This document shows positions 6,576 through 30,083 of a stretch of DNA of 64,000 nt, piece by piece. A program made the position numbers and the translations under genes. Numbering within the stretch: the first letter of the stretch is position 1; each line of letters opens with the position of its first letter. Under the pieces are notes generated by a model, which saw only the letters and a list, made by a program, of their open reading frames with translations, did no database searches and was not told the DNA's origin. This DNA comes from Celeribacter neptunius (lineage in GTDB: Bacteria; Pseudomonadota; Alphaproteobacteria; Rhodobacterales; Rhodobacteraceae), in NCBI RefSeq assembly GCF_900113955.1, contig NZ_FORH01000005.1:1-64000 (forward strand). The letters are read 5' to 3'.

Positions 6576-6579
6576 AGGC

Positions 6580-9966: not shown

Positions 9967-10067
9967 ACACGCATCCGACCTTCATTCTTGCGATTCGCGC
10001 CGGCGCGTCCCGCCGGGATTGCACGCCAGAGCACAGAGATTGGGTGAGGCGTCGCTGTCCTTTTGAA

Positions 10068-13194: not shown

Positions 13195-13254
13195 TCCAGA
13201 ACCTTCACACCCAAAGGGCCGATCAGAGCCTGACCCCAACAGAGAGGATTGACT

Positions 13255-14289: not shown

Positions 14290-14303
14290 TTGCGAGAAAA
14301 CCC

Positions 14304-14333
14304 GCCGCGCCCGTTCGAACCGGGCGCGGCTTT
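14304..14333 (+). terminator. Intra-operon stem-loop between dctP and dctQ
   Basis: Perfect 10-bp stem GCCGCGCCCG (14304-14313) / CGGGCGCGGC (14321-14330), then only TTTC. This is a weak terminator or mRNA-stabilising hairpin that would keep the binding protein more abundant than the membrane subunits. Confidence 0.65.
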
Positions 14334-14355
14334 CCCAGCCGGACAGGAGAGACAG

Positions 14356-14910
14356 ATGGACCGGATCGCCCAGTGGATTTCGCGCCTTTTCGGCGTGGCT
14401 TTGCTTTTCTTGTCGGGCTTCGTGGCGCTCGAGACGCTCCTGCGCAAACTGTTCAACACCTCGCTTCAGGGCGCCGATGAGCTGGGCGGCTATGTCCTCG
14501 CTTTCGGGGCGTCAGCGGCTTTCGTGGTGGCGCTCATCGACCGGGCGCATGTCCGGATCGATGTGGTGCATCAGCGGTTCCCGTTGCGGCTTCAGGCCTG
14601 GATCGATTTCGCTGCGGTCCTGTCCCTGGGCCTGCTCGGGCTGTTTTTCCTCTATGTCGGCTGGTTCGTGATCGAGGACACAATCGCCTATAAATCTACC
14701 GCCGCGACACCCTGGCGCACGCCGCTGATCTACCCGCAGGCGGCCTGGTATGCCGGGTTGGCGCTTTTCGCGCTCTGTTCCTTCTGGCTGTCGCTGCGCG
14801 CACTGCGCCTTGTGCTGGCCGGGCGCATCCATGAGGTGATCCACGCATTCAATCCCAAAACCGCGGAAGAGGAACTGGCCGAGGAACTCGACCAGCTCTC
14901 GGGCCGCTGA
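14356..14910 (+). CDS. dctQ: TRAP transporter small permease (DctQ family)
   Basis: 184 aa, four membrane segments, with the small-subunit motif LLRKLFNTSLQGADELGGY. The ATG at 14356 has AGGAGA (14345-14350) in front of it. It has a hydrophilic, acidic C-terminal tail (TAEEELAEELDQLSGR) longer than in the other three DctQ proteins of this window. It lies after the intra-operon hairpin and 17 nt before dctM. Confidence 0.9.
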   Translation: MDRIAQWISRLFGVALLFLSGFVALETLLRKLFNTSLQGADELGGYVLAFGASAAFVVALIDRAHVRIDVVHQRFPLRLQAWIDFAAVLSLGLLGLFFLYVGWFVIEDTIAYKSTAATPWRTPLIYPQAAWYAGLALFALCSFWLSLRALRLVLAGRIHEVIHAFNPKTAEEELAEELDQLSGR

Positions 14911-14927
14911 GCATAAAGGGCAGAGCC

Positions 14928-16244
14928 ATGAGCATTGTCGATATTCTTGTCGGTTTCACCGTGATGATGGGGTTGCTGCTCATCGGGCTTCCGGTGGCCG
15001 TGGTCATGGTCGCGCTGGGCGTTCTGGGGGGCATGATCCTCTACGGGCCGGTGTTGCTCAAATCCATGGGGCCGGTGCTCTGGGGCGTTTCCAACGAGAA
15101 CGTGCTGACCGCGATCCCGCTGTTCATCCTTCTGGGCGAGCTGTTGCTGCGCTCGGGGCTGGCGGATCGCATGTATGGTGCGCTGGCGCTGTGGCTCGGG
15201 CGGCTGCCGGGCGGGCTGTTGCACACCAATATCGGCGCCTGCTCGCTGTTTGCCGCGACCTCCGGCTCCTCGGTGGCGACGGCGGCGACCGTGGGCACCG
15301 TGGCCCTGCCGGCGCTGGGCGAGCGTGGCTATGCGCCGGCGCGCTCGCTGGGCTCTCTGGCCGCCGGAGGCACGCTCGGCATCCTGATTCCACCCTCGGT
15401 GAACCTGTTGATCTATGGCTCACTCGCCTCTGTTTCGGTCGGGCAGCTGTTCATGGCGGGAATCTTGCCGGGCATCCTGCTCACCCTGCTGTTCATGGCT
15501 TTCGTCATTATTGAGAGCCTTTATCGCCGGTCCAAAGGCCTGCCCGACGCCTCCAAGGTCGAAGTGAAACTGCCGCTCGGTGATCGGCTGCGCGCGCTCA
15601 TCCATCTCGTGCCTGCGGCGGTGGTCTTTGCCATCGTCATGGGCTCGATCTATCTCGGCATCGCCACCCCGACCGAGAGCGCGGCGCTGGCCGTCATCGT
15701 GGCGCTGGTTTTCGTCTGGCGCGAAGGGCGGTTGAGCTTTGCCTTTCTCGACACTTGCTTTCGCCAGACCGCCAAGACCACGGGGATGATCCTGCTGATC
15801 ATCGCGGCGGCCTTCACCCTCAATGTCACGCTGGCGCTTGGCGGCATCACCGGGGTGATTTCCAACTGGGTGGCGGGCCTCGGGCTTGGCCCCACGGGGC
15901 TCTTGCTGGCGCTGATGGTCTTTTATGTCGTCTTGGGCATGTTCATGGACGTGCTGTCGATGCAGGTGCTGACAATTCCGATCGTCGTGCCGATCATCAT
16001 GGCCGCCGGGATCGATCCGGTCTGGTTTGGCATCTTCGTCGTGTTGATGAGCGAGCTGGGGATGATCACCCCGCCGGTCGGGATGAACCTTTACGTGGTG
16101 CAGGGCGTGCGCACCGATGGCGGTCCGTTTTCCGATGTGGTGCGCGGCGCGGTGCCCTATGCAGTTCTGATGTTGCTTTTCACCCTGTTGCTGATCGCCG
16201 TGCCGGGGATCGCGACATGGCTGCCGGAAAGCGTCATGCGATGA
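14928..16244 (+). CDS. dctM: TRAP transporter large permease (DctM family)
   Basis: 438 aa, about 12 membrane segments. Family marks: AIPLFILLGELLLRSGLADR near residue 65, FAATSGSSVATAATVG, GILIPPSVNLLIYG and GMITPPVGMNLYVVQG near the end. The SGSSVATAATVG form groups it with the DctM encoded at 44188-45504, not with the other two in the window. The stop overlaps the amidase ATG (16241-16244), so importer and hydrolase are co-translated. Confidence 0.93.
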   Translation: MSIVDILVGFTVMMGLLLIGLPVAVVMVALGVLGGMILYGPVLLKSMGPVLWGVSNENVLTAIPLFILLGELLLRSGLADRMYGALALWLGRLPGGLLHTNIGACSLFAATSGSSVATAATVGTVALPALGERGYAPARSLGSLAAGGTLGILIPPSVNLLIYGSLASVSVGQLFMAGILPGILLTLLFMAFVIIESLYRRSKGLPDASKVEVKLPLGDRLRALIHLVPAAVVFAIVMGSIYLGIATPTESAALAVIVALVFVWREGRLSFAFLDTCFRQTAKTTGMILLIIAAAFTLNVTLALGGITGVISNWVAGLGLGPTGLLLALMVFYVVLGMFMDVLSMQVLTIPIVVPIIMAAGIDPVWFGIFVVLMSELGMITPPVGMNLYVVQGVRTDGGPFSDVVRGAVPYAVLMLLFTLLLIAVPGIATWLPESVMR

Positions 16245-17590
16245 TCTGGCAGGCCGATTGCACCGCGCTCCTCGATCGGTTCGCGAGCGGCGAGAGCAAC
16301 CCAAGCGCGCTTGTCGAGGTCCTGTTGGCGCGGATCGCGGCTCTTGATCCGGTGTTGAATGCCTATTCGGCGCTCTCGGACACCCTGCGCGCCGAAGCGG
16401 AGGCGGCCACGAAGCGCTGGGCGCTCGGCGCACCCGCGGGGCCGCTCGACGGTCTGCCGCTCATTTTCAAGGACAATCTCGTCAGTGCCGGACTGCCCGC
16501 CGCCTGGGGCAATGCGACCTTGGCGAAACGTGTTGCGGCCCATGATGAGCGCCCGGTCGCGGCACTGCGGGACAGGGGCGCCTTGGTGATCGGAAAGGGC
16601 AATACGCCCGAATTCGCGGTCGAGGGTTATACCGACAATCTCACCTTTGGGGTGACGCGCAACCCGTTCGATCCGGCCCTGACTCCGGGCGGCTCTTCCG
16701 GCGGTGTGGTCGTGGCGATCGCCACCGGGCTTGCGCCTGCAGGACTTGGTACCGATGGCGGCGGTTCGATCCGTCGCCCGTCCGGTTACACCGGGTTGGT
16801 CGGCCTCAAGCCCGGCATCGGCCATGTGCCGCGCGGCGGCGGGCTGGCGCAGGTGCTTCTCGACTTCGAAGTCGTGGGTCCCATCGCGCGCTCGATCCGC
16901 GACTTGCGGTTGCTCGACGCCGCGTTGACCGGTCGGAGCTGCGCAGGGCACTCCCAGAAGCCTGCACGCATCCTCGCCATCGCGACCCTGGAGGAGGCGC
17001 CTTGCGATCCGGAGATCCGCGCGGCTTTCGCACAGACCGTGCGGGCCTTGCGGGTCGAAGGGCATGAGGTAGAGGAAGCTCCGCTGCCCTACGACCTCTC
17101 CGCCCTCAATGCCGGCTGGACCAGGATCGCGGAGATCGGTCTGGCGCGATATTTTCGCGACGACCCGGAGGTTGCCCGAACGGCCGCGCCGAAATACCGC
17201 GACATGGCCGCGCGCGGGGCGGAGGTCTCGGCCACGGAGCTCTATGCCATTCTCGATGCGATCTATGCGCTGCGCCATGCCGCCATCGATCTCTGGGGCT
17301 ATGACGCTATCCTGATGCCGAGTTCGGCCGCGCAGCCCTGGGCCGCCGGCGAGAGCCATCCGCCGGTGATCGACGGACATATGGTCGGGCCGCGCGGCCA
17401 TGCGGTCTATACCGGCTGGGTGAATGCGGCAGGGCTTCCTGCCGTGGCCTTCCCGGCGTCCCGGGAACAGGGGCTGCCGATTGGCATGCAACTCATCGGC
17501 CCGGCAGGCGCCGAGCGGCGGTTGCTCGATCTGGTCGAGCCCATGGTGGCACCATTCCGCTGGCCGGAGTTTGCCTTCACGTCAGGCTGA
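16241..17590 (+). CDS. Amidase (amidase-signature family)
   Basis: 449 aa, cytoplasmic. The Ser-cisSer-Lys triad is complete: Lys77 in LPLIFKDN, the cis-Ser in TPGGSSGG (Ser152/153) and the nucleophile Ser176 in TDGGGSIRRPSG. Members hydrolyse amides, carbamoyl groups or ureido acids. As last gene of the hydantoinase operon it could remove the carbamoyl or amide group left after ring opening (inference). Its 3' end overlaps the convergent hydratase-like gene by 14 bp, leaving no room for a separate terminator. Confidence 0.9.
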   Translation: MIWQADCTALLDRFASGESNPSALVEVLLARIAALDPVLNAYSALSDTLRAEAEAATKRWALGAPAGPLDGLPLIFKDNLVSAGLPAAWGNATLAKRVAAHDERPVAALRDRGALVIGKGNTPEFAVEGYTDNLTFGVTRNPFDPALTPGGSSGGVVVAIATGLAPAGLGTDGGGSIRRPSGYTGLVGLKPGIGHVPRGGGLAQVLLDFEVVGPIARSIRDLRLLDAALTGRSCAGHSQKPARILAIATLEEAPCDPEIRAAFAQTVRALRVEGHEVEEAPLPYDLSALNAGWTRIAEIGLARYFRDDPEVARTAAPKYRDMAARGAEVSATELYAILDAIYALRHAAIDLWGYDAILMPSSAAQPWAAGESHPPVIDGHMVGPRGHAVYTGWVNAAGLPAVAFPASREQGLPIGMQLIGPAGAERRLLDLVEPMVAPFRWPEFAFTSG

Positions 17591-18299
17591 GCGTGACGCG
17601 ACCGAGCCCCTCGATTTCGCCCTCGATCTCCGTACCCGGCCCGAAATAGGGCAGGCCACAGATCGAGCCGGTGATGACGACCTGTCCGACTTGTAAGCCG
17701 CCGCAATGCGTGCCGAGATGCGCCACCAGAAGGGCGAGATTGGCCAGTGCGGAGCCGCCCGGCACCGTGGTCTCGCCATCAAGCACCGGGGCGCCGTTTG
17801 CCAGAAGCCGGGCGTTCAATGTGCCAAAATCCGACCCGTCCCAACCGGGCAGATCGTTGCCTTTGACCAGCCCGGCATTGATCTGGAAATCCGCGAATTT
17901 GTAATCGGGGTCCTCCGCCAGGACGCCTTCGATCCGGGTGCCGACGAGTTCCAGCACGACGCAGGGTCGGAAATAGTTTTGGATATCTTCCGGCAGGTCG
18001 CCGCCGGGCAGGGGTCGCAGAAGTTCGAATCCGACTTCCAGCTCGATCCCGAGCCGGTCCCGAACGGCGCGGCTGCCATGGTTTGCCACGCGGTAACGCG
18101 CGGGGATCGGAGCGAGGATCGGCGGACCGTCGGGCTGACGTCCCACCTTGAACCCGGCGACATCGCCCAGGGGCGCCATGACCTCTGACTGAATGTCGAG
18201 AATGTCGCTGCGCGACAAGGCGCGCTCCTTCGGGATGAAACGAGATCCGGTCTCGTGAGCCCGGAGAAACTCTGTGCTCAGGTTTTGAGGATTGATCAT
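17577..18299 (-). CDS. 2-keto-4-pentenoate hydratase-like protein (FAH superfamily)
   Basis: 240 aa. The layout matches the MhpD-type hydratase branch of the fumarylacetoacetate hydrolase superfamily: an N-terminal helix with PKERALSRSDILDIQ, an acidic metal site in GIELEVGFEL, and a C-terminal VVITGSICGLPYF turn. Members hydrate or decarboxylate 2-keto-4-enoic acids in aromatic meta-cleavage or related routes. It stands alone on the minus strand, convergent with the amidase, and may belong to the hydantoinase cluster functionally. The substrate is unknown. Confidence 0.75.
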   Translation of the reverse strand: MINPQNLSTEFLRAHETGSRFIPKERALSRSDILDIQSEVMAPLGDVAGFKVGRQPDGPPILAPIPARYRVANHGSRAVRDRLGIELEVGFELLRPLPGGDLPEDIQNYFRPCVVLELVGTRIEGVLAEDPDYKFADFQINAGLVKGNDLPGWDGSDFGTLNARLLANGAPVLDGETTVPGGSALANLALLVAHLGTHCGGLQVGQVVITGSICGLPYFGPGTEIEGEIEGLGRVTLSLT

Positions 18300-18571: not shown

Positions 18572-19324
18572 TCAGCTGCGCTCGATTGCTGCCAGACGGG
18601 TCGCGGCGCTTCTAAGCATGGACTGGTCTGAACCGCACACGAAAAGTGTCACGCCCCTGGCATGCCAATCCGGGATCTGACGTGCATTTCCGACGAAGAG
18701 GCCAATAGGTGTGTCCGCCTTCTGACCGGCCGCCACGATACGCATGATCGCATCGTCCAGTTCCGGCGAGGGATAGCCGACTTGCATCGACTGAGACAGA
18801 TCGGCGGGACCGACAAACATCATGTCGACGTCTTCGATCGCGGAGATCTCGTCCAGATGATCCAGCGCGCTGGCGTCTTCGATCTGCACCATGACCACAC
18901 CTGAAGCATCGCAAACCTCTCGATACTCAGGCCCCCCCATGCCACCGTAGTTTCCGGCACGGGGGGACGGTGAAAGCCCGCGCTTGCCGCGCGCAAATCG
19001 TACTGCATCGCACACAGTTTCGGCATCCGCGCCGTCCATCACATGTGGGACCATCACCCCGGCCATCCCCAGATCCAGAAGCGGAGCGATCCAGTCCCGC
19101 GTCGCGCCCCAACGGCGCGACAACAACGGCAATCCCGCCGCGCGCGAGGCCAGGGCCATCCTGTCCATCTGTTCTATGCCGATCGGCGCGTGCTCTTGAT
19201 CAACGACAGCGAAATCCAGTCCGGCCTGCCCCAGGATTTCGACGTTTTGGGGGGCGGGGGTCTTGATGAACGTGCCGATCAACAGCTCTTTGGCCTTGAT
19301 CCGTGCTCTGAGGTCTTGTGCCAT
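18572..19324 (-). CDS. HpcH/HpaI-family aldolase
   Basis: 250 aa. It shows the family metal site VQIEDASALDHLDEI with Glu and Asp (MFVGPADLSQSM) and the catalytic His region VDQEHAPIG. These class II aldolases split 4-hydroxy-2-oxo acids into pyruvate (or a related keto acid) and an aldehyde. Last gene of the long minus-strand operon beginning with the cupin gene, 15 nt after the amidohydrolase-like gene. It would supply the terminal carbon-carbon cleavage of the pathway. The precise substrate is not evident. Confidence 0.88.
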   Translation of the reverse strand: MAQDLRARIKAKELLIGTFIKTPAPQNVEILGQAGLDFAVVDQEHAPIGIEQMDRMALASRAAGLPLLSRRWGATRDWIAPLLDLGMAGVMVPHVMDGADAETVCDAVRFARGKRGLSPSPRAGNYGGMGGPEYREVCDASGVVMVQIEDASALDHLDEISAIEDVDMMFVGPADLSQSMQVGYPSPELDDAIMRIVAAGQKADTPIGLFVGNARQIPDWHARGVTLFVCGSDQSMLRSAATRLAAIERS

Positions 19325-19339
19325 TCTCTGCTCCGCTCT

Positions 19340-20260
19340 TTAGCCTGTTAGGCCGATGACATCGGCGGCATTTCCGGCGACCATCTGGTGAATTTGCGCG
19401 TCGGAATAGCCAAGCCCGATACAAGCGGCGATACCGTTCTGGAACCCCTCAAGCGGCGTCAACGTGCCGACCTGCCCCAGATCGGAGCACAGGATTGTGC
19501 GCTCGGCCCCGACCAGGTCGATATGCTCACGCAGCTCTTCATCGGTTCGGTTTCTGAACTTCGAGCCTTCGACGAAAAAGGCCAGCGAGTGTTCCACATA
19601 AGCCCCCATATCGGCGATTTCTTTGGTGTCCGCCATAGAGGCGCCGACGATGTCCTCGGGGTGTGTGAAAATCAGTCGCTCGACACCGCGCTTACGGGCC
19701 TCGGCAAAGATGATTTTGGTTTCCGACACATGAATATGACCGCTGGCCAGTGCCATTCCGGTGGCGGCCATGACATCCAGCAGGTCCAGCACCTCGGGTC
19801 GCAGCCTACCATCATCAAACAGGGGGACCGCGGTGGCCGGGCGTATTTTCTGGGTCGAGGCCGGATGAACCCAGCCGGAGGTCTTTTCCCATTCCAGATG
19901 GTTTTCTGCGGCCAGCGTCGGCAGCCAGACGATCCTTCCATCCATGGCTGCGGTGTGTTCGACCGCATAAGGATTGATCCCGCCCACAACATTGTTGAGC
20001 ACGATGCCCGAGTAAACCTTTGTCTTCAGATCGGGATAGTGATCCTGCAGCATCTGCGCGCAGATCACGCCGGAATAGTCATGATCTTTGGTCACCATGG
20101 CAGAAAATCCGCTATCCGAGTAGATCTGCGCCAGTTCCAGATGATCCACCGCGCGCGGTGCGATCGAGGGGCCGGAATGCACATGCGGGTCGACCGCGCC
20201 GGTCAAGATATCGGCAATCCTTGAGGCCTGTTCGGTCACGATGTTTTCGATGTTACTCAT
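19340..20260 (-). CDS. DUF6282-type metal-dependent amidohydrolase-like protein
   Basis: 306 aa. An amidohydrolase-style metal motif is present at the N-terminus (DPHVHSGPS, Asp24, His26, His28). Further histidines lie in TKDHDYSG, SGHIHVSE and FTHPED, and a C-terminal acid in CSDLGQ, consistent with a TIM-barrel hydrolase. I recognise it as the uncharacterised DUF6282 type; no reaction is known to me. Its start overlaps the quinone oxidoreductase stop by 8 bp. The position between BKACE and aldolase suggests it opens a lactone or ring (inference). Confidence 0.7.
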   Translation of the reverse strand: MSNIENIVTEQASRIADILTGAVDPHVHSGPSIAPRAVDHLELAQIYSDSGFSAMVTKDHDYSGVICAQMLQDHYPDLKTKVYSGIVLNNVVGGINPYAVEHTAAMDGRIVWLPTLAAENHLEWEKTSGWVHPASTQKIRPATAVPLFDDGRLRPEVLDLLDVMAATGMALASGHIHVSETKIIFAEARKRGVERLIFTHPEDIVGASMADTKEIADMGAYVEHSLAFFVEGSKFRNRTDEELREHIDLVGAERTILCSDLGQVGTLTPLEGFQNGIAACIGLGYSDAQIHQMVAGNAADVIGLTG

Positions 20261-21035
20261 GAGGGCCTTCCGATCCTGTTGCTGTTTGAAATGGTGTGTC
20301 ACGGGGACCGCCTTTGCGGGCCCATGCCCGGTCGGGCACGGTGTCCAGCGCTGTGCGCCAATCGTCGGTACGCTGAACGGGCTGGGCGGCAAGAGCCAAC
20401 GCGGCTGTGGTGGCGGCGTCCAGATAGGCCGCGCGCGCTGTCTCATCCGTGCGCGGGACACCGTAGCTGACAACGGGGGAGGCCACGTCGAATCCCATAT
20501 ATTCCAGCGCATGTTTGCGGATAGGCGTCAACAACGGCCCGATCGGGCCATAGACGCCCGTGTCCGAGAACCGCGCGGGCGTGCCACCTGTGGTGACGCT
20601 GATCATGGCGCGGCGGCCCTTGAACACCCCGGTGTCAAAGCGTCGCCCATCGACATAGGCGAAACCATAGCTCAGCACCCGGTCGATCCAGCCTTTCATC
20701 AGGGCTGGCGCGCCACCCCACCACAAAGGGAATTGCAGGATCAGATTGTCGGCCTCGGCCACGCGCGCCTGCTCCCGGGCGATATCGGCAGCATAGCTAT
20801 TCTGGCGCGCCGCATGGGCCTGTTCGGCCTGAATGTGAAACTGATCCGGGTCGGCCATGCCCTGCATGTCATGGCGGCCAATATCGGCGCGAAACCCCTC
20901 CGCGGCCAGATCGGAAATCGTCACCTGATGCCCGGCCCCGCGCAGCCCTTCGGCCATGGCACCGGCCAGGGCATGGTTGAAAGAGCCCGGCGCAGGATGG
21001 GCCACGACAATCAGAATGTTGCGCTTGCTCCCCAT
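20253..21035 (-). CDS. NAD(P)H:quinone oxidoreductase-like flavodoxin-fold protein
   Basis: 260 aa. Flavodoxin-like fold of the MdaB/NQO1 family: ILIVVAHPAPGSFNHALA at the N-terminus, LILQFPLWWGGAPALMKGWIDR as the flavin-binding centre, and SVTTGGTPARFS. It reduces quinones or electrophilic carbonyl compounds with NAD(P)H in the cytoplasm. The C-terminal tail (about 40 residues) is proline- and glycine-rich and longer than usual. Located 3 nt after the BKACE gene and overlapping the DUF6282 gene. It could reduce a quinonoid intermediate or detoxify one. Confidence 0.82.
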   Translation of the reverse strand: MGSKRNILIVVAHPAPGSFNHALAGAMAEGLRGAGHQVTISDLAAEGFRADIGRHDMQGMADPDQFHIQAEQAHAARQNSYAADIAREQARVAEADNLILQFPLWWGGAPALMKGWIDRVLSYGFAYVDGRRFDTGVFKGRRAMISVTTGGTPARFSDTGVYGPIGPLLTPIRKHALEYMGFDVASPVVSYGVPRTDETARAAYLDAATTAALALAAQPVQRTDDWRTALDTVPDRAWARKGGPRDTPFQTATGSEGPHE

Positions 21036-21038
21036 AGC

Positions 21039-21968
21039 CTAGAACTCCACTCGATCGGCACCTTTGAGGTTCAGCATGGCGCGGGCTTCGTCCGGGGTGG
21101 CAATCTCAAAGCCAAGGCTTTCGGCCAGTTCACGTGCCATGGTCACCTGCTGGGCATTGCTGACAGCCAGTTCCCCACGTTTGGCAAAGAGTGAATCCTC
21201 CAGACCAACACGCATGTTCCCGCCCAGGATCAGAGATTGCATGGCGACGGACATCTGGTGGCGCCCCGCCCCCAGAACCGACCAATGATAATCCTGGCCA
21301 AACAGCCGATCCGCCGTGCGGCGCATATGGGCGACGTCTTCGGGATGAGCGCCGATCCCGCCCAGAATGCCAAAGACGCTTTGCACAAAGAACGGCGGTT
21401 CGATCAGGCCCCGCCCGACAAAATGATGCAGCGTATAAAGATGGCCGATGTCATAGCATTCCACCTCGAACCGTGTGCCGCTGGCCGAGCAGGTCTTAAG
21501 AACATGTTCGATCTCGGCAAAACTGTTATGAAAAATTCGCGACCGCGACCCTTCGATGTAGTCTTCTTCCCAGTCGAATTTGAAGTCCTTCATCTTGTCG
21601 AGAATGGGGTAAAAGCCGAAATTCATCGTGCCCATGTTCAGGGATGCGATTTCGGGCTGGAAGGTTGCGGCGGGGCGCAAGCGCTCTTGCACGCTCATCT
21701 GGGGGGAACCACCAGTGGTGATGTTGATCACCACGTCCGAGCGTTGTTTGATCACTTTCAGAAACGGTTCGAACCGTTCGGGCGATTGGTCCGGGCGTCC
21801 GGTTTTGGGGTTGCGGGCATGAAGATGGACAATCGCGGCGCCGGCTTCGCGCGCTTCGAGCGCGGCGGTGGCGATCTCTTCTGCGGTGATTGGCAGATGC
21901 GGGGACATGGACGGGGTGTGAATGCCGCCGGTGACAGCGCAGGTGATGATGATTTTGGGTTTGGTCAT
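21039..21968 (-). CDS. Beta-keto acid cleavage enzyme (BKACE, DUF849)
   Basis: 309 aa. The BKACE signature is clear: IIITCAVTGG at the N-terminus, zinc ligands in VHLHARNPKTG (His48, His50), INITTGGSP and the late GLEDSLFAKRG. These enzymes condense a beta-keto acid with acetyl-CoA to give acetoacetate and a new CoA ester (Kce in lysine fermentation is the founding member). Start at 21968 is fixed by homology to the N-terminal strand; it lies 8 nt after dctM. It implies that the imported compound is turned into a beta-keto acid. Confidence 0.9.
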   Translation of the reverse strand: MTKPKIIITCAVTGGIHTPSMSPHLPITAEEIATAALEAREAGAAIVHLHARNPKTGRPDQSPERFEPFLKVIKQRSDVVINITTGGSPQMSVQERLRPAATFQPEIASLNMGTMNFGFYPILDKMKDFKFDWEEDYIEGSRSRIFHNSFAEIEHVLKTCSASGTRFEVECYDIGHLYTLHHFVGRGLIEPPFFVQSVFGILGGIGAHPEDVAHMRRTADRLFGQDYHWSVLGAGRHQMSVAMQSLILGGNMRVGLEDSLFAKRGELAVSNAQQVTMARELAESLGFEIATPDEARAMLNLKGADRVEF

Positions 21969-21976
21969 ATCGGCTC

Positions 21977-23248
21977 TCAGAACACGGCGCGGGGAATGAA
22001 GAGGGTGAGCTGCGGCACCAGAGCAATCAGGGCCAGCACGGCCAGACAGATCCCTACAAGGGGGAGCGCCTCGCGGATCACACGGGTAACCGGTTCGCCC
22101 GAAATGGCTGAGGCGATAAAGAGCAATATGCCCACCGGTGGCGTGGCCATGCCGATCACCACGTTCAGCACCACAACTGTGCCGAACTGCACAGGGTCCA
22201 TGCCAATCAGGGCCTGCATTTTCAGCAGGATCGGCATGGTCAGGATCAGGATCGAGATCGGTTCGAGAAACATGCCCAGCATCAGAAGGAAAATGTTCAG
22301 AAATAGCAGGATCAGCCATGGGTTCTCGGTGATCTGGAGCATTGCTTCCGCGATCAGGGTCGGGACCTGCTCAAGAGTAAAGACAAAGGACACGATGCTC
22401 GCCATTGAGGTGATGAACAGGATTGAGGCCGACACAAGTGCTGTGGCAATCAGCGCGTTCCAGACGCGCTCGACCGTCAGGTCCTTGTAGATGAACCCGA
22501 TGACCAGTGCATAGGCGACGGCGACGGCGGCGGCTTCGGTCGGGGTAAAGATACCGGCCTTGATCCCCACCAGAATGATCAGCGGCAGGACCAGCGCGGG
22601 AAAGGTGCGGCGTGTGGCCGTCAGCCGGTCTGCCAGCGTCATCTTGTCCGTCACCGGAAAGCCATCGCGGCGGGCGCGCCAGCTGGCATAGGTCAGCAGC
22701 CCCACGGCGATGCCAATTCCCGGCACCACACCGGCCAGAAAAAGTTGCCCGATGGACGCTCCGGAAAGCACTCCGTAAATGATCATGGTGATGGAAGGCG
22801 GGATAATCGGCCCCATGACCGAGCTCACGGCAATCAGCGCCGCCGCATAGGCCGGGGGCATGCCTTGTTTCGACATTGTCGGGATAAGGATGGTTCCCAG
22901 CGCCGAGGCCTCGGCCGTGGCGCTGCCAGAAATCCCGGCAAAAAAGCCCGAAGACAGGATCGACACTGACGACATCCCTCCGCGCCGGTGTCCGACCATG
23001 GCGCGTGCGAAATTGACGATGCGATCGGTCACCCCACCTACGTTCATCAGCGTTCCGGCCAGAAGGAACAGCGGGATGGTCAGCAGTACGAACTGGTCGA
23101 TCCCGGCAATCATCCGTTGCGGCAGCAGCAGTGCCATCATGCCATTGCCGGACAGGTACAGGTAAACCGTTCCGCCGATACCAAGAGCAAGGGCGATGGG
23201 AATGCCGCTGGCTAATAGCCCGGCAAAAACGAGGAAAAAACTGCCCAT
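21977..23248 (-). CDS. dctM: TRAP transporter large permease (DctM family)
   Basis: 423 aa, about 12 membrane segments, with LLTIPLFLLAGTLMNVGGVTDR, SSVMGPIIPPSITMIIYG and GMATPPVGILLFIASAISGEP. The start shares one base with the dctQ stop (TGATG), so the two are coupled. Sits between dctQ and the BKACE gene in the same operon; the enzymes therefore act on the transported solute or its products. Confidence 0.93.
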   Translation of the reverse strand: MGSFFLVFAGLLASGIPIALALGIGGTVYLYLSGNGMMALLLPQRMIAGIDQFVLLTIPLFLLAGTLMNVGGVTDRIVNFARAMVGHRRGGMSSVSILSSGFFAGISGSATAEASALGTILIPTMSKQGMPPAYAAALIAVSSVMGPIIPPSITMIIYGVLSGASIGQLFLAGVVPGIGIAVGLLTYASWRARRDGFPVTDKMTLADRLTATRRTFPALVLPLIILVGIKAGIFTPTEAAAVAVAYALVIGFIYKDLTVERVWNALIATALVSASILFITSMASIVSFVFTLEQVPTLIAEAMLQITENPWLILLFLNIFLLMLGMFLEPISILILTMPILLKMQALIGMDPVQFGTVVVLNVVIGMATPPVGILLFIASAISGEPVTRVIREALPLVGICLAVLALIALVPQLTLFIPRAVF

Positions 23249-23829
23249 CAGCTTAGGTCTCCTGACGGGGCCGGTGCCGCGTCTTTGGGGTCAAAGTTGT
23301 TCAGGAATTCCGGTCTAAATCGGACGATCAGATCGGCGATCACATGCAGAGCCATGAGAGACAGCCCGACTGTGACCGACACATAAACCCAGCGTATCGA
23401 TAGGCCCAATGGGGCACCGGTCAACGACTCCCAGATAAAATCCAACGCCGGGATCGTCTGGCGATCAAAACGGGCAGCATAGTCATATCCATTCCACGCC
23501 ATCAGCCCCAGAAAGAACAGAATTGGCACCGCCATCACTGCGCTGAGCACCCATTTCCAACGCGGCGACAACAGCGTGGGCACGAAATCCAGCGCGACGA
23601 ACTCTCCACGCGAATAGGCCAGCCCCAAAACGAGAAATGTCAGCCATATCAATAAGTAGCGACACAATTCTTCTGCCCAGATCAGGGAATCGCCGACCAC
23701 GTAGCGGGCAAAGACCTGCGCGATCATGATGCCCACGATCAACGCCATGCACAGGCCCGCCAAAACGCGCACGGTCTGCAAGTAGCCGCGTATGATAAGT
23801 GGAGGTTTCGGGTGGGAAGCAGTCGTCAT
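23248..23829 (-). CDS. dctQ: TRAP transporter small permease (DctQ family)
   Basis: 193 aa with four membrane segments and the QVFARYVVGDSLIWAEELCRYLL motif of DctQ. 75 bp separate it from the dctP gene upstream. It ends with a short hydrophilic tail and overlaps dctM by one base. Confidence 0.9.
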   Translation of the reverse strand: MTTASHPKPPLIIRGYLQTVRVLAGLCMALIVGIMIAQVFARYVVGDSLIWAEELCRYLLIWLTFLVLGLAYSRGEFVALDFVPTLLSPRWKWVLSAVMAVPILFFLGLMAWNGYDYAARFDRQTIPALDFIWESLTGAPLGLSIRWVYVSVTVGLSLMALHVIADLIVRFRPEFLNNFDPKDAAPAPSGDLS

Positions 23830-23904
23830 AGCTTGCCTTTCAAAATGTATCTCTGCGCGACATCAGCATCAGCCGCGCGAGACACTGTTTGCTTTGCCAA
23901 CCGA

Positions 23905-24897
23905 TTATCCGGCGGCGGCGACCAATTCGGCGATCAGTGGATCCTTTGCCGCCCATTCCGAGGTCATGCCCGCCACCTTGGCGCGCATGACGTCCAGATC
24001 GGCAAGTTCCAACACGTCGACGCCTTTGGCCTTGAGCGTCTCACGCCCCTCGGCGTCTTGGGTTTTGGCGTAGTCCAGAGTTGCCGAAACGGACCGGCGT
24101 CCGGCTTCGGTCACGACGGCTTTTTCTTCGTTGCTCAGGGAATTCCAGTAGCGATCCGACATGATCGTGGTCATGTGCCAAGGATAATGTCCCGTCAGAG
24201 TGAAGTTCTTGCCGACTTCCCACAGGTTCTCGCCCAGCATCGAGGAAACGTTGATTTCAACAGCGTCCAGAACACCGGTTTCCAGCGCACCGTAAATTTC
24301 TCCGTAAGGCAGACCGACCGGGGCGGTGCCCAGCGTCTCCCAGATCTGTTTATGCAGCGCCACGGGCACTATTCGGGTTTTCAGACCAGACAGATCCTCC
24401 AACGAGGTCACCGGATCCTTGACCGACAGAAAGTGACGCTGACCGGTATCCGCGGTGGCCAGGCTGATCAGCCCAGCGTCACGCAGATCTTCCTGAATTT
24501 TGAGGCCAACCTCACCCAAGGCCAGTTCGCCAAAGTGATCATAATCCCGGACAAGAAATGGTAATTGCCACGCGTTCATTGCCTGGCGTCCGGTCACCAA
24601 CGGGATCAGCACGCCAGACACGGCAGTCACATCCATTGTGCCCGCAACAGTGCCCTCTAACAGTTGCTTGTCACTGCCCAGCTGTCGGTTGGGGAAAATG
24701 TTGATGTTGAAAGCGCCCGGCATCAGGTCTTCGAGAGACTCGGCAAAGCTGGTGGCGAGTTTGTGCCCTGGGTGTACCTCGTTGGCGCTATGGGCGATTT
24801 TCATGGATTTACCCGCAGCCCGGGCCACATGTGGTGACGCCAAGGCGCCCACAAAGGCGGCCGTGCCTGTGCGCAAAAGAGTCCTTCTCGTGATCAT
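23905..24897 (-). CDS. dctP: TRAP transporter substrate-binding protein (DctP family)
   Basis: 330 aa. The N-terminus has a twin-arginine-like signal (MITRRTLLRTGTAAFVGAL) ending at VARA-AG, so export may use Tat. The DctP body contains LSGLKTRIVPVALHKQIW with the carboxylate-binding Arg. It begins 52 bp after the cupin gene and is followed by dctQ. A GGAGG-like ribosome site (GGAGGAGAAACC on the coding strand) precedes the ATG. Confidence 0.92.
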   Translation of the reverse strand: MITRRTLLRTGTAAFVGALASPHVARAAGKSMKIAHSANEVHPGHKLATSFAESLEDLMPGAFNINIFPNRQLGSDKQLLEGTVAGTMDVTAVSGVLIPLVTGRQAMNAWQLPFLVRDYDHFGELALGEVGLKIQEDLRDAGLISLATADTGQRHFLSVKDPVTSLEDLSGLKTRIVPVALHKQIWETLGTAPVGLPYGEIYGALETGVLDAVEINVSSMLGENLWEVGKNFTLTGHYPWHMTTIMSDRYWNSLSNEEKAVVTEAGRRSVSATLDYAKTQDAEGRETLKAKGVDVLELADLDVMRAKVAGMTSEWAAKDPLIAELVAAAG

Positions 24898-24949
24898 CGG
24901 TTTCTCCTCCCAAGTGATCGTGTTTTCCTATTCCCGCGCTGAGATGCGC

Positions 24950-25882
24950 TCAGCTGCGTTCGTCTCGTCCTGCAGGCTGATCCTCGGGCATAGGGTAGTC
25001 TTCGGCATTCAGCACCCAGCCCGGTTTCATTGAGAAATCCATGCGCGGAGGGCTGAAAATATCGACCAGCTCATTGCTGGCGGGCGCCGTCGCGCGCGTG
25101 GTGTGGATGACCGGCGGCGGGATCACCAGCATCGAGGGCGAGGCCATCTCAATCGCCATATCCTCGCGCCAATCGGCCATATCGCTGGTCCAGGGCCAGC
25201 GCAGATAATGGGTGAACTCGCCGTTCAGTGCCAAAGATCCCTGCTCGAAATCATCGTGATGATGTGGCGACATCTTGGAAGGGTCGCGGGGGCCATCAAA
25301 GGGTTCGAGCACATTGATCATCAGCGTGGTGCATCGAAAGATGCGGCCGAAGCGGCCTTCTTCAGACGGCACATCCAGACTGTAGGCGCGGATTTTCCAA
25401 CCACTTGTGGGTTCAGGCCACGGTTGAAACGGCGGGATATGGGGGCGGGGCGCATCATAAGCGCGTGCGTTGCCGCAGGCCTCGGCCAGATCAGTGTTTT
25501 GCGTGGAAAAAAGCCGCACCAGAACACCGCCCCCGGGCAGTGTCACTGTGCTGTCACCGGGCGGCACAAAGGCAAGACTGTTGCCGGGGACGTCTTCGTG
25601 TGTGCCACCCCATGTTATCACGGCACCAGCCTGAGGCAGCAACACCGCATATTCATCCGCTTGCGCAACGCGCTCGAACATCGCGCCCGGCTGGGCCTCA
25701 GTATAGGCCACAAGGAAGTTATGACCGCGATGCATCCATGTCATGCCTGTCGCGTCTGAAATCAGTGGGGCTGAGGCGTAGAAATACCCTTCCTGTTGTT
25801 CCGCAACCAATCCCGTCTGGGCAATTGTGCCGGCCGAAGCCTTGGGCGCCAAAGACGCGCGCGGATCGGATTTGTCGTACAT
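24950..25882 (-). CDS. Cupin-like protein of unknown function
   Basis: 310 aa, two-domain arrangement. The C-terminal half has a cupin-type metal motif, SPHHHDDFEQGSLALNGEF, followed by PPPVIHTTRA, giving three histidines plus one glutamate. The N-terminal half (residues 50-135) looks like a degenerate cupin with GNSLAFVPPGDSTV. It could be a mononuclear-iron dioxygenase, an isomerase or a ligand sensor. First gene of the operon, 191 bp from the divergent IclR gene. I do not recognise a named family. Confidence 0.7.
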   Translation of the reverse strand: MYDKSDPRASLAPKASAGTIAQTGLVAEQQEGYFYASAPLISDATGMTWMHRGHNFLVAYTEAQPGAMFERVAQADEYAVLLPQAGAVITWGGTHEDVPGNSLAFVPPGDSTVTLPGGGVLVRLFSTQNTDLAEACGNARAYDAPRPHIPPFQPWPEPTSGWKIRAYSLDVPSEEGRFGRIFRCTTLMINVLEPFDGPRDPSKMSPHHHDDFEQGSLALNGEFTHYLRWPWTSDMADWREDMAIEMASPSMLVIPPPVIHTTRATAPASNELVDIFSPPRMDFSMKPGWVLNAEDYPMPEDQPAGRDERS

Positions 25883-26073
25883 GGATCAATCCTTATTGCA
25901 GGCGGCAAAAAGGGCCGCGTGAAAAACCTGAAAGATGGCCGACGTTTGCGTCTCTTTCTCTTGATTTTGTCTCGCTATGCGATACGATGTTTCTTGTAAT
26001 GGAACATAAATACCGACGATCCGCGTTGTCAAGCATTGCATTCTGATGTGTTCTAAGCGGACTGTTGCGGACA
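25883..26073. promoter_or_regulatory. Divergent promoter region cupin operon/IclR
   Basis: 191 bp, AT-richer than the flanking genes. It contains a 21-bp dyad, ATGTTTC (25987-25993) N7 GGAACAT (26001-26007), the kind of GTTCC/GGAAC-type inverted repeat that IclR regulators bind. It is the only strong dyad seen in the gap. Confidence 0.55.
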
Positions 26074-26889
26074 ATGAGCAAGGAGCATGGCGATTTGAAA
26101 TCGGGGCATGATGACAAAGCAGATGTGATCCAAAGTGTTGCGATGGCGTTGCAAATACTTGAAACACTTGCGGATAAAGACGCCGACATTGGTGTGACCG
26201 CGCTGGCGACGGCGCTGGGAACCACCAAAAGCCGGATTCACCGGCATCTGCGCACACTGGTGTCCCTAGGTTACATTTCGCAATCCGAAGAAACCGAACG
26301 CTACCGAATCGGCGCACGGCTGATCGCTCTGGGAAAGGCTGCGTCAGGATCGGCTGACCTGTCATCCGTGGCCCTGCCACACATGCGTGCGCTTCGGGAT
26401 GCTACCGGGCATGCTGTTAGCCTTGGACGGGTCGAACAAGACGGCATCCGTATCCTCAACACGCTGGCCGGCAACATGCAGATCGAAGTGGGTGTCCGGC
26501 CCGGTTCGTTGCTGGGATTCACAAATTCAGCACAAGGCAAAGTCGCGCTGGCGGCAATGTCTGACAAGGACCGCGCGGCATTGATCCCCTCAAAGTTGCC
26601 GGCTGCCACGCAGTTCACCATCACGAACCGAGATGAATTCTGGGCGCATATCAACACGGTTCGCGATCAACGTTGGGCGACTGCACCAAACGAAGCCATG
26701 CTGGGACTGAATGCGTTGTCTTGCCCGATTTTCGATGCAGACCGGACCGCGGTTGCGACGATCGCAATCGTCAGTCTGACGCAGTATATCGAAACTCCGC
26801 CTGATCCTATGCAGATACGGGCCGTTTCTGAGGCCGCCGAGCGCATATCAACCCAACTCGGTTGCCCCAATTACGTGTGGGAGAGTTGA
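26074..26889 (+). CDS. IclR-family transcriptional regulator
   Basis: 271 aa. The winged helix-turn-helix spans about residues 18-80 (QSVAMALQILETLADKDADI, then TTKSRIHRHLRTLVSLGYI), followed by an IclR effector domain (about 95-265) containing VSLGRVEQDGIRIL and the family's GLNALSCPIFD. Start at the ATG 26074; a TTG nine bases upstream is less likely. Divergent from the cupin-TRAP-BKACE operon, which it very probably controls. Its ligand should be the TRAP substrate or a product. Confidence 0.92.
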   Translation: MSKEHGDLKSGHDDKADVIQSVAMALQILETLADKDADIGVTALATALGTTKSRIHRHLRTLVSLGYISQSEETERYRIGARLIALGKAASGSADLSSVALPHMRALRDATGHAVSLGRVEQDGIRILNTLAGNMQIEVGVRPGSLLGFTNSAQGKVALAAMSDKDRAALIPSKLPAATQFTITNRDEFWAHINTVRDQRWATAPNEAMLGLNALSCPIFDADRTAVATIAIVSLTQYIETPPDPMQIRAVSEAAERISTQLGCPNYVWES

Positions 26890-27624: not shown

Positions 27625-28584
27625 TCACGCGGTTCCGCGGGTTCGGCGCAGCGTCTGGCTGGGAGTTTCGAGGAACAGCTGGCGGTATTCCTGCGAGAAC
27701 CGTCCGAGGTGGAAGAAGTTCAGATCGAGCGCGATCCTCGTGATATTGTCCTCGCCGTCCATGCAGAGGCGGCGGCGCGCGAGGTTCAGACGTTGCAGGC
27801 GCAGCCAGCGGCCGGGAGAGATCCCGAGAACTTCGCGGAACGAGACCTGGATCAGCCTGAGGCTGACCCCGGTCGCGTCGCACATCAGTGCCAGATCGGC
27901 GCTTTCCAGCCCCGTTGCTTCGGCCGCCTCGCAGGCCTTGCGCACGATGGTCTGCCGGTCGATGCGCCATTGCCGACTGCGTTCGGCCTGCGACGGGGTG
28001 ATGATCCGGCCATTGGCCAGCTGGTCGAGGACATGCCGGGCCATGCCGTCGGCATCGGCGATCGGCTTGCCGTGCTGCGCGCTCAGAAGATGCGACAGAT
28101 TGGTCGCGATCCGGTCCGAGATGTCCATGAAAACCTGCCGGATGTTCCCGTCGGGAAGTCGGTAACTGTTCAGCGCCGTTTCAAAGAAGTCGCGGCAGAT
28201 CATGACCACCATGATGTCCGAGTTCTGGTCCGAGATCGCCCGATAGCGTCCGCCCTCGGTCATGACCTGATGCAAGCCGGACCCGCGGGCGACGCCATTG
28301 TCGATGTTGCACCGCAAGAGCCGACAGCCGTTGATCGGGATCGAGACGGCGACCCAGTCCTTCGGGGGCGTCGCCTGTTGATCTACGGCGACATTCATGC
28401 GTTCGCGGGCCAGCCGGATGGACCCCAGATCCAGCTGACACAGTTCCCCGCGGAACCGGCCCGCAGACATCTGCTGGTATTGCTGGTCCCATTGGTCGAG
28501 CAGACGTTCCTGTCCGCTCAGTTCTTCGGCAATCAGGTGAACGGGTTCAAGCTGCATCTCGGGCACTCTTCTGCGTCTCGTCAT
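27625..28584 (-). CDS. AraC-family transcriptional regulator
   Basis: 319 aa. The C-terminal about 100 residues hold the double helix-turn-helix of AraC proteins, with LSLRLIQ-like helix 1 (ATGVSLRLIQVSFREVLGIS) and the diagnostic end FFHLGRFSQEYRQLFLETPS. The N-terminal part resembles the sensor domain of the AraC protein at 46410-47333 (D.W.Q.Y.QMS.G.F.G...L...I.L.RE..N pattern). The start at 28584 is chosen because upstream codons lack a ribosome site. Divergent, across 134 bp, from the aminotransferase-ABC operon, its likely target. Confidence 0.9.
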   Translation of the reverse strand: MTRRRRVPEMQLEPVHLIAEELSGQERLLDQWDQQYQQMSAGRFRGELCQLDLGSIRLARERMNVAVDQQATPPKDWVAVSIPINGCRLLRCNIDNGVARGSGLHQVMTEGGRYRAISDQNSDIMVVMICRDFFETALNSYRLPDGNIRQVFMDISDRIATNLSHLLSAQHGKPIADADGMARHVLDQLANGRIITPSQAERSRQWRIDRQTIVRKACEAAEATGLESADLALMCDATGVSLRLIQVSFREVLGISPGRWLRLQRLNLARRRLCMDGEDNITRIALDLNFFHLGRFSQEYRQLFLETPSQTLRRTRGTA

Positions 28585-28718
28585 GGTTCCAAGGTCTGTC
28601 CCATCTGATCGCTGGCATTGCAAAATGGCAAGCTCAGGGCCGAGACCGTGCGCAAATCGGATAGTTCGGGGGGAGGCGTTGCCCGTAGTTTAGGCGAAAC
28701 CTAACAGGACTTCCTTCA

Positions 28719-30083
28719 ATGACGACAGCATCCGACAGCATTCTTCATCCCTTTACCAACCTCTCACAGACGGCCCCTGCACCGATCCGGACCTTCGCGA
28801 AAGGCGATGGGCTCTACGTGATCGGGGATGATGGCGAACGGTATTTCGAGGCCATGTCTGGCCTTTGGTCCGTCTCGCTCGGCTTCTCCGAAAAACGCCT
28901 CGCGGACGCGGCAACCCGGCAGCTGCAGTCGCTGCCGTTCTATCACATCTTCATGTCATCCTCGCACGAGCAGGTGCGCGAACTGGCCGAGGCGCTGATC
29001 GCGCGTGCACCGGGGCAGCTGGCTCATGTCGGGTTTTCGACCTCGGGCTCCGAGGCCAACGAGACCGCGGTCAAGGCGGTCTGGCAGTATAACAACGTTC
29101 TGGGACGCCCGCAGAAGAAAAAGATCATCGCCCGTTGGGATGCCTATCACGGATCGACGGCCTTGGCCGCGTCGCTCTGCGGTCTGCCCAACATGCACAG
29201 CGGGTTCGACCTGCCGCTCGGGCCGATCCTTCACACCGGCAGCCCGCACCATTGGCGCCACGCCAAGCCCGGCGAAACCGAGGAGGCCTTCGCGACGCGG
29301 CTGGCGGACGAGCTGGAGCAGATGATCCAGCGCGAGGGACCCGACACCATCGCGGCCTTCATCGCCGAACCGATCATGGGGGCAGGGGGCGTGATCGTGC
29401 CGCCCGCGTCGTATTTCGACAAGATCGTTCCGGTCCTGAAAAAGCACGATATCCTGTTGATCGCCGATGAGATCATCTGCGGCTTTGGCCGGACCGGGAC
29501 CTATTGGGGGTCCGAACTCTGCGGCATCGAACCTGACATTCTGGTCTGCGGCAAACAGCTGTCCGGTGGATATCTTCCGATCTCGGCGACGCTGATGACC
29601 GACGAGATCTACAGCGTGATTGCCACCGAGACTTCGCGCAGCGGCGGGTTCTCGCACGGGTTCACCCATTCCGGCAATCCGGTCTGCGCCGCCGTCGCCA
29701 ACGAGGCCATCCGCATCTACGACGAACGCGACATCGTTGCCGGTGTCGCAAGGAAGGCCGAGGTGTTCCACGCTGCACTGCGCGAGGCATTCACAGGCGC
29801 CGAGCACGTCGGCGAGGTCCGGGGTGTCGGATTGCTCGGGGCGGTGGAACTGGCCCCCGAGGGCGATCCGCGTCGCAGCTTTGCGGACAAAGCGGGTGCG
29901 CTCTGGGCCCGGGACATTTATGAGACGGAAAAAACCGTCGTCCGGGCGGTGCACGATGCTGTCGTGCTTTGCCCGCCTCTGATCGTGGAAGAGGGCGACC
30001 TGATTGCTCTGGTCGAACGTCTGCGCCGCTCCTACGATCGTGTTCTTCCTCAGATCAGGGCGCTTTCCACAACCGATTACTAA
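28719..30083 (+). CDS. Class III (omega) aminotransferase
   Basis: 454 aa, PLP enzyme. It shows the class III pattern: GFSTSGSEANETAVKA binding the phosphate, WDAYHGSTALAASL, Asp250 in LLIADEIICGFGRTG and the Schiff-base Lys279 in CGKQLSGGYLPISA. Such enzymes move the amino group of diamines, taurine or beta-amino acids to pyruvate or another keto acid. It is the first gene of an operon with a polyamine-type ABC importer, so an imported amine such as a diamine is the likely donor. The ATG at 28719 follows AGGACTTCC. Confidence 0.9.
   Translation: MTTASDSILHPFTNLSQTAPAPIRTFAKGDGLYVIGDDGERYFEAMSGLWSVSLGFSEKRLADAATRQLQSLPFYHIFMSSSHEQVRELAEALIARAPGQLAHVGFSTSGSEANETAVKAVWQYNNVLGRPQKKKIIARWDAYHGSTALAASLCGLPNMHSGFDLPLGPILHTGSPHHWRHAKPGETEEAFATRLADELEQMIQREGPDTIAAFIAEPIMGAGGVIVPPASYFDKIVPVLKKHDILLIADEIICGFGRTGTYWGSELCGIEPDILVCGKQLSGGYLPISATLMTDEIYSVIATETSRSGGFSHGFTHSGNPVCAAVANEAIRIYDERDIVAGVARKAEVFHAALREAFTGAEHVGEVRGVGLLGAVELAPEGDPRRSFADKAGALWARDIYETEKTVVRAVHDAVVLCPPLIVEEGDLIALVERLRRSYDRVLPQIRALSTTDY

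Follow-up and report, generated by a model that had tools for sequence, protein, structure and literature searches.

The first 64,000 nucleotides of contig NZ_FORH01000005.1 of Celeribacter neptunius (the whole of this stretch is referred to here as the window) contain an operon of eight minus-strand genes that faces a divergent gene for an IclR-family regulator. We find that this operon is real, conserved and, judging from its operators, co-regulated, and that it encodes two enzymes without a known reaction, a bicupin and a DUF6282 protein; it is ordinary in kind and makes a useful test case. Its gene content and conservation, the operator pattern, the predicted folds and the conserved residues were established by computation. 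With about an even chance of being right, the operon can be read as an IclR-regulated unit that imports and degrades a carboxylic acid, most likely one of the ring type or derived from a ring. A lower pathway that yields pyruvate is the best reading of its chemistry, in which our confidence is evenly balanced.

Gene content and conservation of the operon

Open reading frame (ORF) calling on the window placed the operon at 18572-25882, with the IclR gene divergent on the plus strand. The genes are given below; the start codons of the genes for DUF6282 and the beta-keto acid cleavage enzyme (BKACE) were chosen by us within longer ORFs.

24950-25882, minus strand: bicupin of 310 aa, no Pfam model at E<=1, assigned from its predicted fold
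23905-24897, minus strand: DctP, solute-binding protein of a tripartite ATP-independent periplasmic (TRAP) transporter; PF03480 at 183 bits, NF037995 above cutoff
23248-23829, minus strand: DctQ, TRAP small permease; PF04290
21977-23248, minus strand: DctM, TRAP large permease; PF06808, TIGR00786 above cutoff
21039-21968, minus strand: BKACE (DUF849), accessory gene; PF05853 at 361 bits, NF053538 at 529 bits (cutoff 430)
20253-21035, minus strand: Flavodoxin_2 (NQO-like) oxidoreductase, accessory gene; PF02525 at 163 bits
19340-20260, minus strand: DUF6282 protein, predicted amidohydrolase-superfamily fold; PF19799 at 219 bits, predicted local distance difference test (pLDDT) of the model 86.6
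18572-19324, minus strand: HpcH/HpaI class II pyruvate aldolase; PF03328, catalytic positions shared with GarL
26074-26889, plus strand: IclR-family regulator; PF01614 and PF09339, with TTG at 26065 as an alternative start to the ATG at 26074

The operon genes are tightly packed, with spacings of −8 to 75 bp. The bicupin and DctP genes are separated by 52 bp and the DctP and DctQ genes by 75 bp, DctQ and DctM overlap by 1 bp, 8 bp lie between DctM and BKACE and 3 bp between BKACE and NQO, the NQO and DUF6282 genes overlap by 8 bp, and 15 bp separate DUF6282 from HpaI. Seven of the eight operon genes and the IclR gene were identified with Pfam or NCBIfam models, and DctP, DctQ and DctM together make up a TRAP-T carboxylate transporter. 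The HpaI protein is a class II aldolase of the HpcH/HpaI kind: besides its match to PF03328, it and 17 other proteins, when aligned with 1dxe, all retain the catalytic His, Arg and Asp and the metal-binding Glu and Asp, residues whose roles we take to be those in GarL and HpaI. The sequence-only reading of this DNA had described eight packed genes in one direction, a divergent IclR gene and a dyad between them, and the ORF calls, the domain models and the bicupin fold bear this out, with the qualification that the dyad is imperfect. The option of deriving the DctP ligand from solved relatives was rejected, the best match (4p47, 1.6e-39) being too distant.

Scanning genome contigs with the DUF6282 protein retrieved 25 loci (designated by L numbers), in which DUF6282 is thus present by construction, and the window genes were mapped onto them by tblastn. 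Genes of the HpaI family were found in all 25 loci, IclR in 24 (the locus lacking it, L024, is a 7-kb contig), the bicupin in 22, DctM in 20, Flavodoxin_2/NQO in 12 and BKACE in 7. A focal clade of 17 loci, which we chose by way of the bicupin and TRAP genes, comprises L002-L015, L019, L020 and L025; L007 and L009 are from the same species, and L009 was omitted from alignments A1 and A2. All 17 focal loci hold a seven-gene core made up of IclR, bicupin, DctP, DctQ, DctM, DUF6282 (the protein used as query) and a gene of the HpaI family. The occurrence of the same core in 17 of the 25 loci exceeds chance. BKACE is present in 6 and Flavodoxin_2 in 12 of the 17 focal operons. The HpaI proteins of 13 focal loci are 71-82% identical to the window protein and those of four are 36-38% identical, a pattern which indicates that the family has been retained although the gene itself was apparently exchanged. 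Outside the clade, L016-L018 lack the bicupin; they have a divergent TRAP system, a one-domain cupin and a flavoprotein of the DHO_dh family (as judged by Pfam for L016 and by ORF clustering for the others). L021-L024 and L026 keep the bicupin, with a major facilitator superfamily transporter in L021 and L022 (L026 was assessed by clustering).

A second sample, independent of DUF6282, consisted of 20 cupin-centred regions, that is, 20 of the 21 places outside the host genome (the place in G273 was left out). HpaI was found in 18 of these regions and DUF6282 in 12 (tblastn, E<=1e-8); BKACE was found in 7, with an identity of only 29-34% in three of them. The association is therefore closest between cupin and aldolase, and DUF6282 occurs often but not always. 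Among Pseudomonadota genomes the cupin was found in 11 of 398 and DUF6282 in 10 of 398, apparently from the same draw; with the host excluded, 9 of 397 genomes have DUF6282, 10 the cupin and 7 both (hypergeometric probability 1.5e-11, relatedness ignored). At the order level, 12 of 292 Rhodobacterales genomes have the cupin, and among the five same-genus genomes listed the host alone has it. The module is patchy and accessory.

The predicted operator and its distribution

The imperfect dyad between the IclR and bicupin genes spans 21 bp (25987-26007). It was not listed by a general repeat scan and is not significant alone: rival palindromes of the region score equally or better, and 469 out of 2000 shuffled sequences yield a 19-mer at least as good as the best one of the region. 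Its evidential weight derives from its conservation as one half of a predicted tandem operator, composed of two 19-bp palindromes 20 bp apart:

25988-26006, minus strand: predicted operator half 1, TGTTCCATTACAAGAAACA, core of the 21-bp dyad
25968-25986, minus strand: predicted operator half 2, CGTATCGCATAGCGAGACA, 20 bp from half 1
26003-26032, minus strand: sigma70-like promoter TTGACA-18-TATGTT, the −10 element of which overlaps operator half 1

Two copies of the motif TGTWYC-N7-GRWACA, their starts separated by 20 bp, are present in 11 of 13 IclR-cupin intergenic regions (the window, L003, L004, L006, L010, L011, L013, L014, L015, L019 and L025), and such pairs appear in no more than 0.3% of 300 dinucleotide shuffles per region. 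The exceptions are L069, where the spacing is 22 bp, and L002, which has one half only. Because the consensus was derived from these same intergenic regions, a scan of whole loci is the stronger test. With up to 4 mismatches allowed in 24 positions, 12 of 14 loci proved to carry the paired motif, 18 sites in all, and L002 and L069 had none. Twelve of these sites lie between IclR and the cupin gene, and the remaining six form a second tandem operator just upstream of DUF6282 in L010, L011, L013, L014, L015 and L019, where it lies behind the IclR gene at about 9893-9968. These are six of the nine loci in which the DUF6282-HpaI genes lie apart from the cupin-TRAP genes. A variant palindrome precedes both HpaI and the detached DUF6282 gene in L005, L007, L008 and L009, and HpaI only in L064; L088 has matches with one mismatch before both genes, and looser patterns hit a few other places too. 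In the host genome the operator pair (up to 3 mismatches) occurs at a single place, window positions 25968-26006.

The promoter match is weak alone (one found versus 0.4 expected in shuffles), and the same TTGACA is visible ahead of the first palindrome in L011, L013 and L019. The IclR domains, together with a conserved palindrome that overlaps the promoter in the divergent region, mark the IclR protein as the probable regulator of the operon, its binding to the operator being predicted. On the simplest reading it is probably a local repressor, repression rather than activation being what we infer here. Taken together, the sites predict one regulon that covers the operon and the displaced DUF6282-HpaI units. 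A single IclR-linked catabolic unit, as originally proposed, thus gains support from the conserved core and the tandem operator, and the question whether the enzymes might be regulated independently is answered in its favour by the operator copies that six of nine displaced units keep.

The DUF6282 protein and the bicupin

The DUF6282 protein matches PF19799 only, not PF04909. Its predicted model falls among the amidohydrolase-superfamily barrels (Foldseek match to 2i5g at E 1.1e-7 and template modelling score 0.62; VIA-align match to 6vgo at Z 20.4, with a root-mean-square deviation (rmsd) of 3.2 over 262 aligned residues), its fold matches being dipeptidases, NagA and phosphotriesterase-like enzymes at Z 17.6-20.4. 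It is thus predicted to be a TIM-barrel protein of the amidohydrolase fold. H26, H28, H175, H177, H200 and D260 are invariant in all 25 sequences by alignment alone; the metal-ligand pattern used for comparison was that of the amidohydrolases, with HxH after strand 1 and a later His, His and Asp. We also surveyed 14 annotated plasmid stretches with DUF6282, chosen by us from 46 records. Nine of them hold an HpaI- or RraA-type aldolase gene (Leisingera, Microvirga, Paracoccus TOH, Roseateles, Gemmobacter, Thermus, Agrobacterium leguminum, Roseomonas and Pseudosulfitobacter SMR1), and in Thermus the neighbours include PIG-L and RraA genes, a catechol 2,3-dioxygenase and a 4-hydroxybenzoate 3-monooxygenase.

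Several arrangements around DUF6282 were observed in passing. On the Thermus oshimai plasmid pTHEOS01 (L084, 6372-10281), genes for catechol 2,3-dioxygenase, a GntR regulator, DUF6282, a PIG-L protein and an RraA/CHA aldolase stand in a row, possibly a gallate- or protocatechuate-like lower pathway where DUF6282 would fill the place of the lactonase. Positions 8800-10584 of L060 hold a PF04909 amidohydrolase after the bicupin, where other loci have DUF6282, and this may be a functional replacement. L080, L081 and L085 share a module of a DHO_dh-type flavoprotein (annotated as hypothetical in L080 and L085; Pfam was run on L085), DUF6282, HpaI, a small cupin, a succinate-semialdehyde-type dehydrogenase and IclR, to which L081 and L085 add TRAP genes and a GMC oxidoreductase. 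This module has the appearance of a sister pathway whose substrate carries a primary alcohol. Kojic or comenic acid was guessed as a substrate from these modules; among the papers listed none concerned bacterial genes by its title, and we leave this as speculation.

The bicupin has no Pfam model at E<=1 and stands outside the cupin families in Pfam. Its AlphaFold2 model (mean pLDDT 86.6) shows a double beta-barrel cupin fold, and the match to 6l9i (VIA-align; Z 18.0, rmsd 3.1, 221 aligned residues) places the predicted protein in the cupin superfamily. An alignment of 55 bicupins was built from 78 hits, which were merged to 54 because of identical C-termini and joined to the window protein, with identities to the latter down to 35%. 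H207, H209, Q214, H225 and H260 are invariant in all 55, the site in the C-terminal barrel consisting of H207, H209, Q214 and H260, and E213 varies. We take this HxH-x4-Q...H set to resemble those of the non-oxidative cupins of the KdgF and BacB types. As far as its conserved residues go, the His3-Gln site suits a non-oxidative enzyme.

Aromatic ring-cleavage clusters hold relatives of the cupin, the aldolase, BKACE and the reductase. In Rhodococcus opacus 9, genes for a flavin reductase, an NTF2 protein, an alpha/beta hydrolase and bphC come before those for the cupin and HpaI, and a hydroxylase gene is divergent; the place of the cupin and HpaI genes is presumably where the logic of meta-cleavage pathways places the hydratase and the aldolase. 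Similar parts, together with BKACE and a Flavodoxin_2-type gene, are found in Pseudosulfitobacter SM26-46 and in L051 and L052. Sphingopyxis RW412 has two BKACEs near its cupin-HpaI pair, and in L068 a phenol-hydroxylase-type gene adjoins the cupin.

As had been anticipated from the sequence, neither enzyme has a known reaction as far as could be found: the cupin lacks a Pfam model, and no paper on DUF6282 was found in the literature searched. Nor was a pathway for this gene set found there, most subscription papers lying outside the reach of that search.

A proposed pathway and its alternatives

We infer the ligand, the order of the steps and the chemistry of each, as follows. The TRAP system would import the acid. 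Where it is present, the Flavodoxin_2 reductase could carry out a flavin-dependent reduction of a quinone or a conjugated C=C bond. DUF6282 may then open or hydrolyse a ring or lactone, and the bicupin may isomerise or hydrate the product to a 4-hydroxy-2-oxo acid, from which the HpaI aldolase would release pyruvate and a carbonyl compound. If the latter is a beta-keto acid, BKACE could turn it, together with acetyl-CoA, into acetoacetate and an acyl-CoA; the operons of many relatives lack a gene for this step. Tentatively, and with clearly less than even confidence, we suggest an undescribed lower pathway in which the His3-Gln bicupin and DUF6282, both with new activities, replace the classical hydratase or tautomerase and the lactonase ahead of a class II pyruvate aldolase. 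This pathway would serve on its own, as an operon supplied by a transporter, and, as regards at least the cupin and the aldolase, would also form the end of aromatic ring-cleavage clusters; BKACE or a 3-oxoacid CoA-transferase would provide an optional last step.

A number of observations weigh against the main reading of the operon. The window operon contains no ring-hydroxylating or extradiol gene, and the aromatic link is made via relatives only. DUF6282 was not found in 8 of the 20 cupin-centred regions, including L050 (with TRAP, HpaI and cupin) and L051-L054, and the R. opacus and Pseudosulfitobacter clusters carry no annotation of it; in L062, DUF6282 and the cupin are present without an HpaI hit, and L060 lacks hits to both HpaI and DUF6282. 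Five of the 14 plasmid stretches (Novosphingobium, Priestia, Natrinema, Pelagibacterium and Alicyclobacillus) have no annotated aldolase, and no second operator was found before DUF6282 in the split loci L012, L020 and L025, nor in L064, at the threshold used. The fold matches of DUF6282 cannot tell a hydrolase from a lactonase or a deacetylase, and those of the bicupin mix isomerase, decarboxylase and dioxygenase (oxalate decarboxylase at Z 18.0, quercetinase at 17.2, AerE at 17.1, BacB at 16.3). In Agrobacterium 1D1108 the cupin lies beside enolase-superfamily genes, RraA and an aldehyde dehydrogenase gene, a sugar-acid-like setting, and in the Microvirga strain with a CoA-transferase in its operon, a different plasmid carries a BKACE relative.

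An alternative that we regard as unlikely is that the bicupin itself cleaves the ring, as a gentisate- or salicylate-type dioxygenase acting on an imported dihydroxy-aromatic acid, with Flavodoxin_2 keeping that acid in the quinol form, DUF6282 cleaving the acylpyruvate and HpaI releasing pyruvate. The quinone-reductase-type partner in the operon and the relatives in aromatic clusters fit this scheme, as does the presence of salicylate 1,2-dioxygenase among the bicupin fold matches (Z 15.6, a similarity of fold only); the lack of a gentisate 1,2-dioxygenase among the 50 such matches listed excludes nothing. However, a VOC/bphC-type dioxygenase adjoins the bicupin relatives in R. opacus, Pseudosulfitobacter and L051, so that these relatives would be redundant ring cleavers, the reductase is missing from 5 of the 17 focal loci, and the invariant HxH-x4-Q...H is what we presume of KdgF- and BacB-type isomerases rather than of gentisate dioxygenases.

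Less probable still is a sugar-acid pathway, in which the TRAP system takes up an aldonate, uronate or sugar lactone, DUF6282 acts as a lactonase, the bicupin fills an isomerase role like that of KduI or KdgF, and HpaI is a GarL-like aldolase for 2-keto-3-deoxy sugar acids. In its favour, a 2-dehydro-3-deoxyglucarate aldolase is among the closest named models of the window aldolase (121 bits), whose best solved relative is 1dxe, IclR scores 125 bits with KdgR (and 126.7 with PcaR/PobR), DctM and DctQ match the YiaN and YiaM models below cutoff, and the Agrobacterium setting described above is of this kind. Yet the equivalog cutoffs of GarL, KdgR and YiaN are not reached, HpaI itself lying below those of TIGR02311 (120.9 versus 368.8), TIGR03239 (116.6 versus 406.75) and NF007849 (121.4 versus 393). 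No sugar-acid dehydratase is present among the eight window genes (the operons of relatives were not searched for one), and partners such as BKACE and 3-oxoacid CoA-transferase do not fit a sugar acid.

BKACE passes the NCBIfam equivalog model NF053538 (3,5-dioxohexanoate) at 529.3 bits, and stays below the Kce model of lysine fermentation (NF052387; 250.5 bits versus a cutoff of 382) and the 3-oxoadipate model (NF053568; 168 bits versus 350). All ten BKACEs scanned from related loci likewise pass the first model, at 463-541 bits, and fail the other two. The second-best solved match is BKACE15 of P. denitrificans (433 bits, residues 4-309; PDB 8RIO, 8RIP and 9HNF; PMC11961710). Judged by these scores, BKACE is not an orphan and belongs to a characterised subgroup. 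Passages of PMC11961710 list the substrates tested with BKACE15, 3,5-dioxohexanoate being accepted, and give its physiological role as unknown, with a genomic context suggestive of aromatics; a passage of PMC6449761 links a COG3246 protein to catechol metabolism. It had been proposed that BKACE and the aldolase imply two obligatory carbon-carbon cleavages. As a general rule we reject this, as BKACE is missing from 11 of the 17 focal operons. Nine of these 11 genomes were searched (L012 and L020 were left out): five have a relative elsewhere (L003, L010, L011, L014 and L015), and in four (L002, L013, L019 and L025, of which L002 and L019 are metagenome-assembled) none was found at E<=1e-40, a threshold that more distant BKACEs would escape. 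The operon of Microvirga VF16 has 3-oxoacid CoA-transferase genes after DUF6282, in the place of BKACE. BKACE gives the impression of a plug-in that handles a beta-keto acid product, not of a pathway signature. The import of a 4-hydroxy-2-pyrone or polyketide fragment, opened by DUF6282 to 3,5-dioxohexanoate and cleaved by BKACE to acetoacetate and acetoacetyl-CoA, is improbable even though the NF053538 and BKACE15 results agree with it and a passage of PMC10470551 ascribes this cleavage to a Clostridium BKACE-family enzyme in phloroglucinol degradation, since it leaves HpaI without a role and most core operons without the key enzyme, and since five BKACE relatives at 64-73% identity with surroundings that were inspected (among 40 of 574 records listed) sit in other operons, so that the substrate in the cell may differ from the one in the equivalog name.

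The proposed pyruvate-yielding lower pathway can be compared with described systems. With the lower pathway of 4-hydroxyphenylacetate (homoprotocatechuate) it would share the aldolase superfamily and the logic of pyruvate release; it differs in that HpaI falls short of TIGR02311 and the other seven operon genes are not assigned there. In the protocatechuate 4,5- and gallate lower pathways (LigI-LigJ-LigK, GalB-GalC), an amidohydrolase-fold hydrolase feeds a class II pyruvate aldolase, as would be the case here, and the Thermus DUF6282 gene beside PIG-L and RraA-type aldolase genes adds to this likeness; the differences are that the window DUF6282 belongs to PF19799 instead of PF04909 and that HpaI takes the place of RraA. 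The phloroglucinol pathway of Clostridium scatologenes has a BKACE-family cleavage of 3,5-dioxohexanoate, which the window BKACE may share, but is anaerobic and reductive, and the words cupin and amidohydrolase are absent from the main text of PMC10470551. Two families without a known reaction, one of them without a Pfam model, are here tied to a predicted regulon and a pyruvate aldolase, which leaves a short, testable list: which acid and which intermediate. Aromatic-degradation clusters on plasmids of Rhodococcus, Sphingopyxis and Pseudosulfitobacter also carry the cupin-aldolase pair, so that the solution of a single operon would aid the annotation of many others.

The surroundings of the operon were also inspected. 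A downstream gene resembling FAH/2-keto-4-pentenoate hydratases (17577-18299, minus strand) was considered as a pathway member and left out, as it had no hit across the 25 loci (E<=1e-10, 60 bits). Converging on it is an amidase gene (PF01425) that closes a second TRAP set at 13249-17587 on the plus strand, in which the large permease (14928-16244) was recognised by clustering and the two preceding genes by appearance. A third TRAP set beside a LysR-type gene (4798-7572, minus strand, and 8248-9186, plus strand) was likewise assigned from ORF appearance, so that perhaps three TRAP systems lie within a span of about 20 kb. On the other side of the IclR gene, at 27625-30083, a class III aminotransferase gene is divergent from a gene for an AraC-family regulator.

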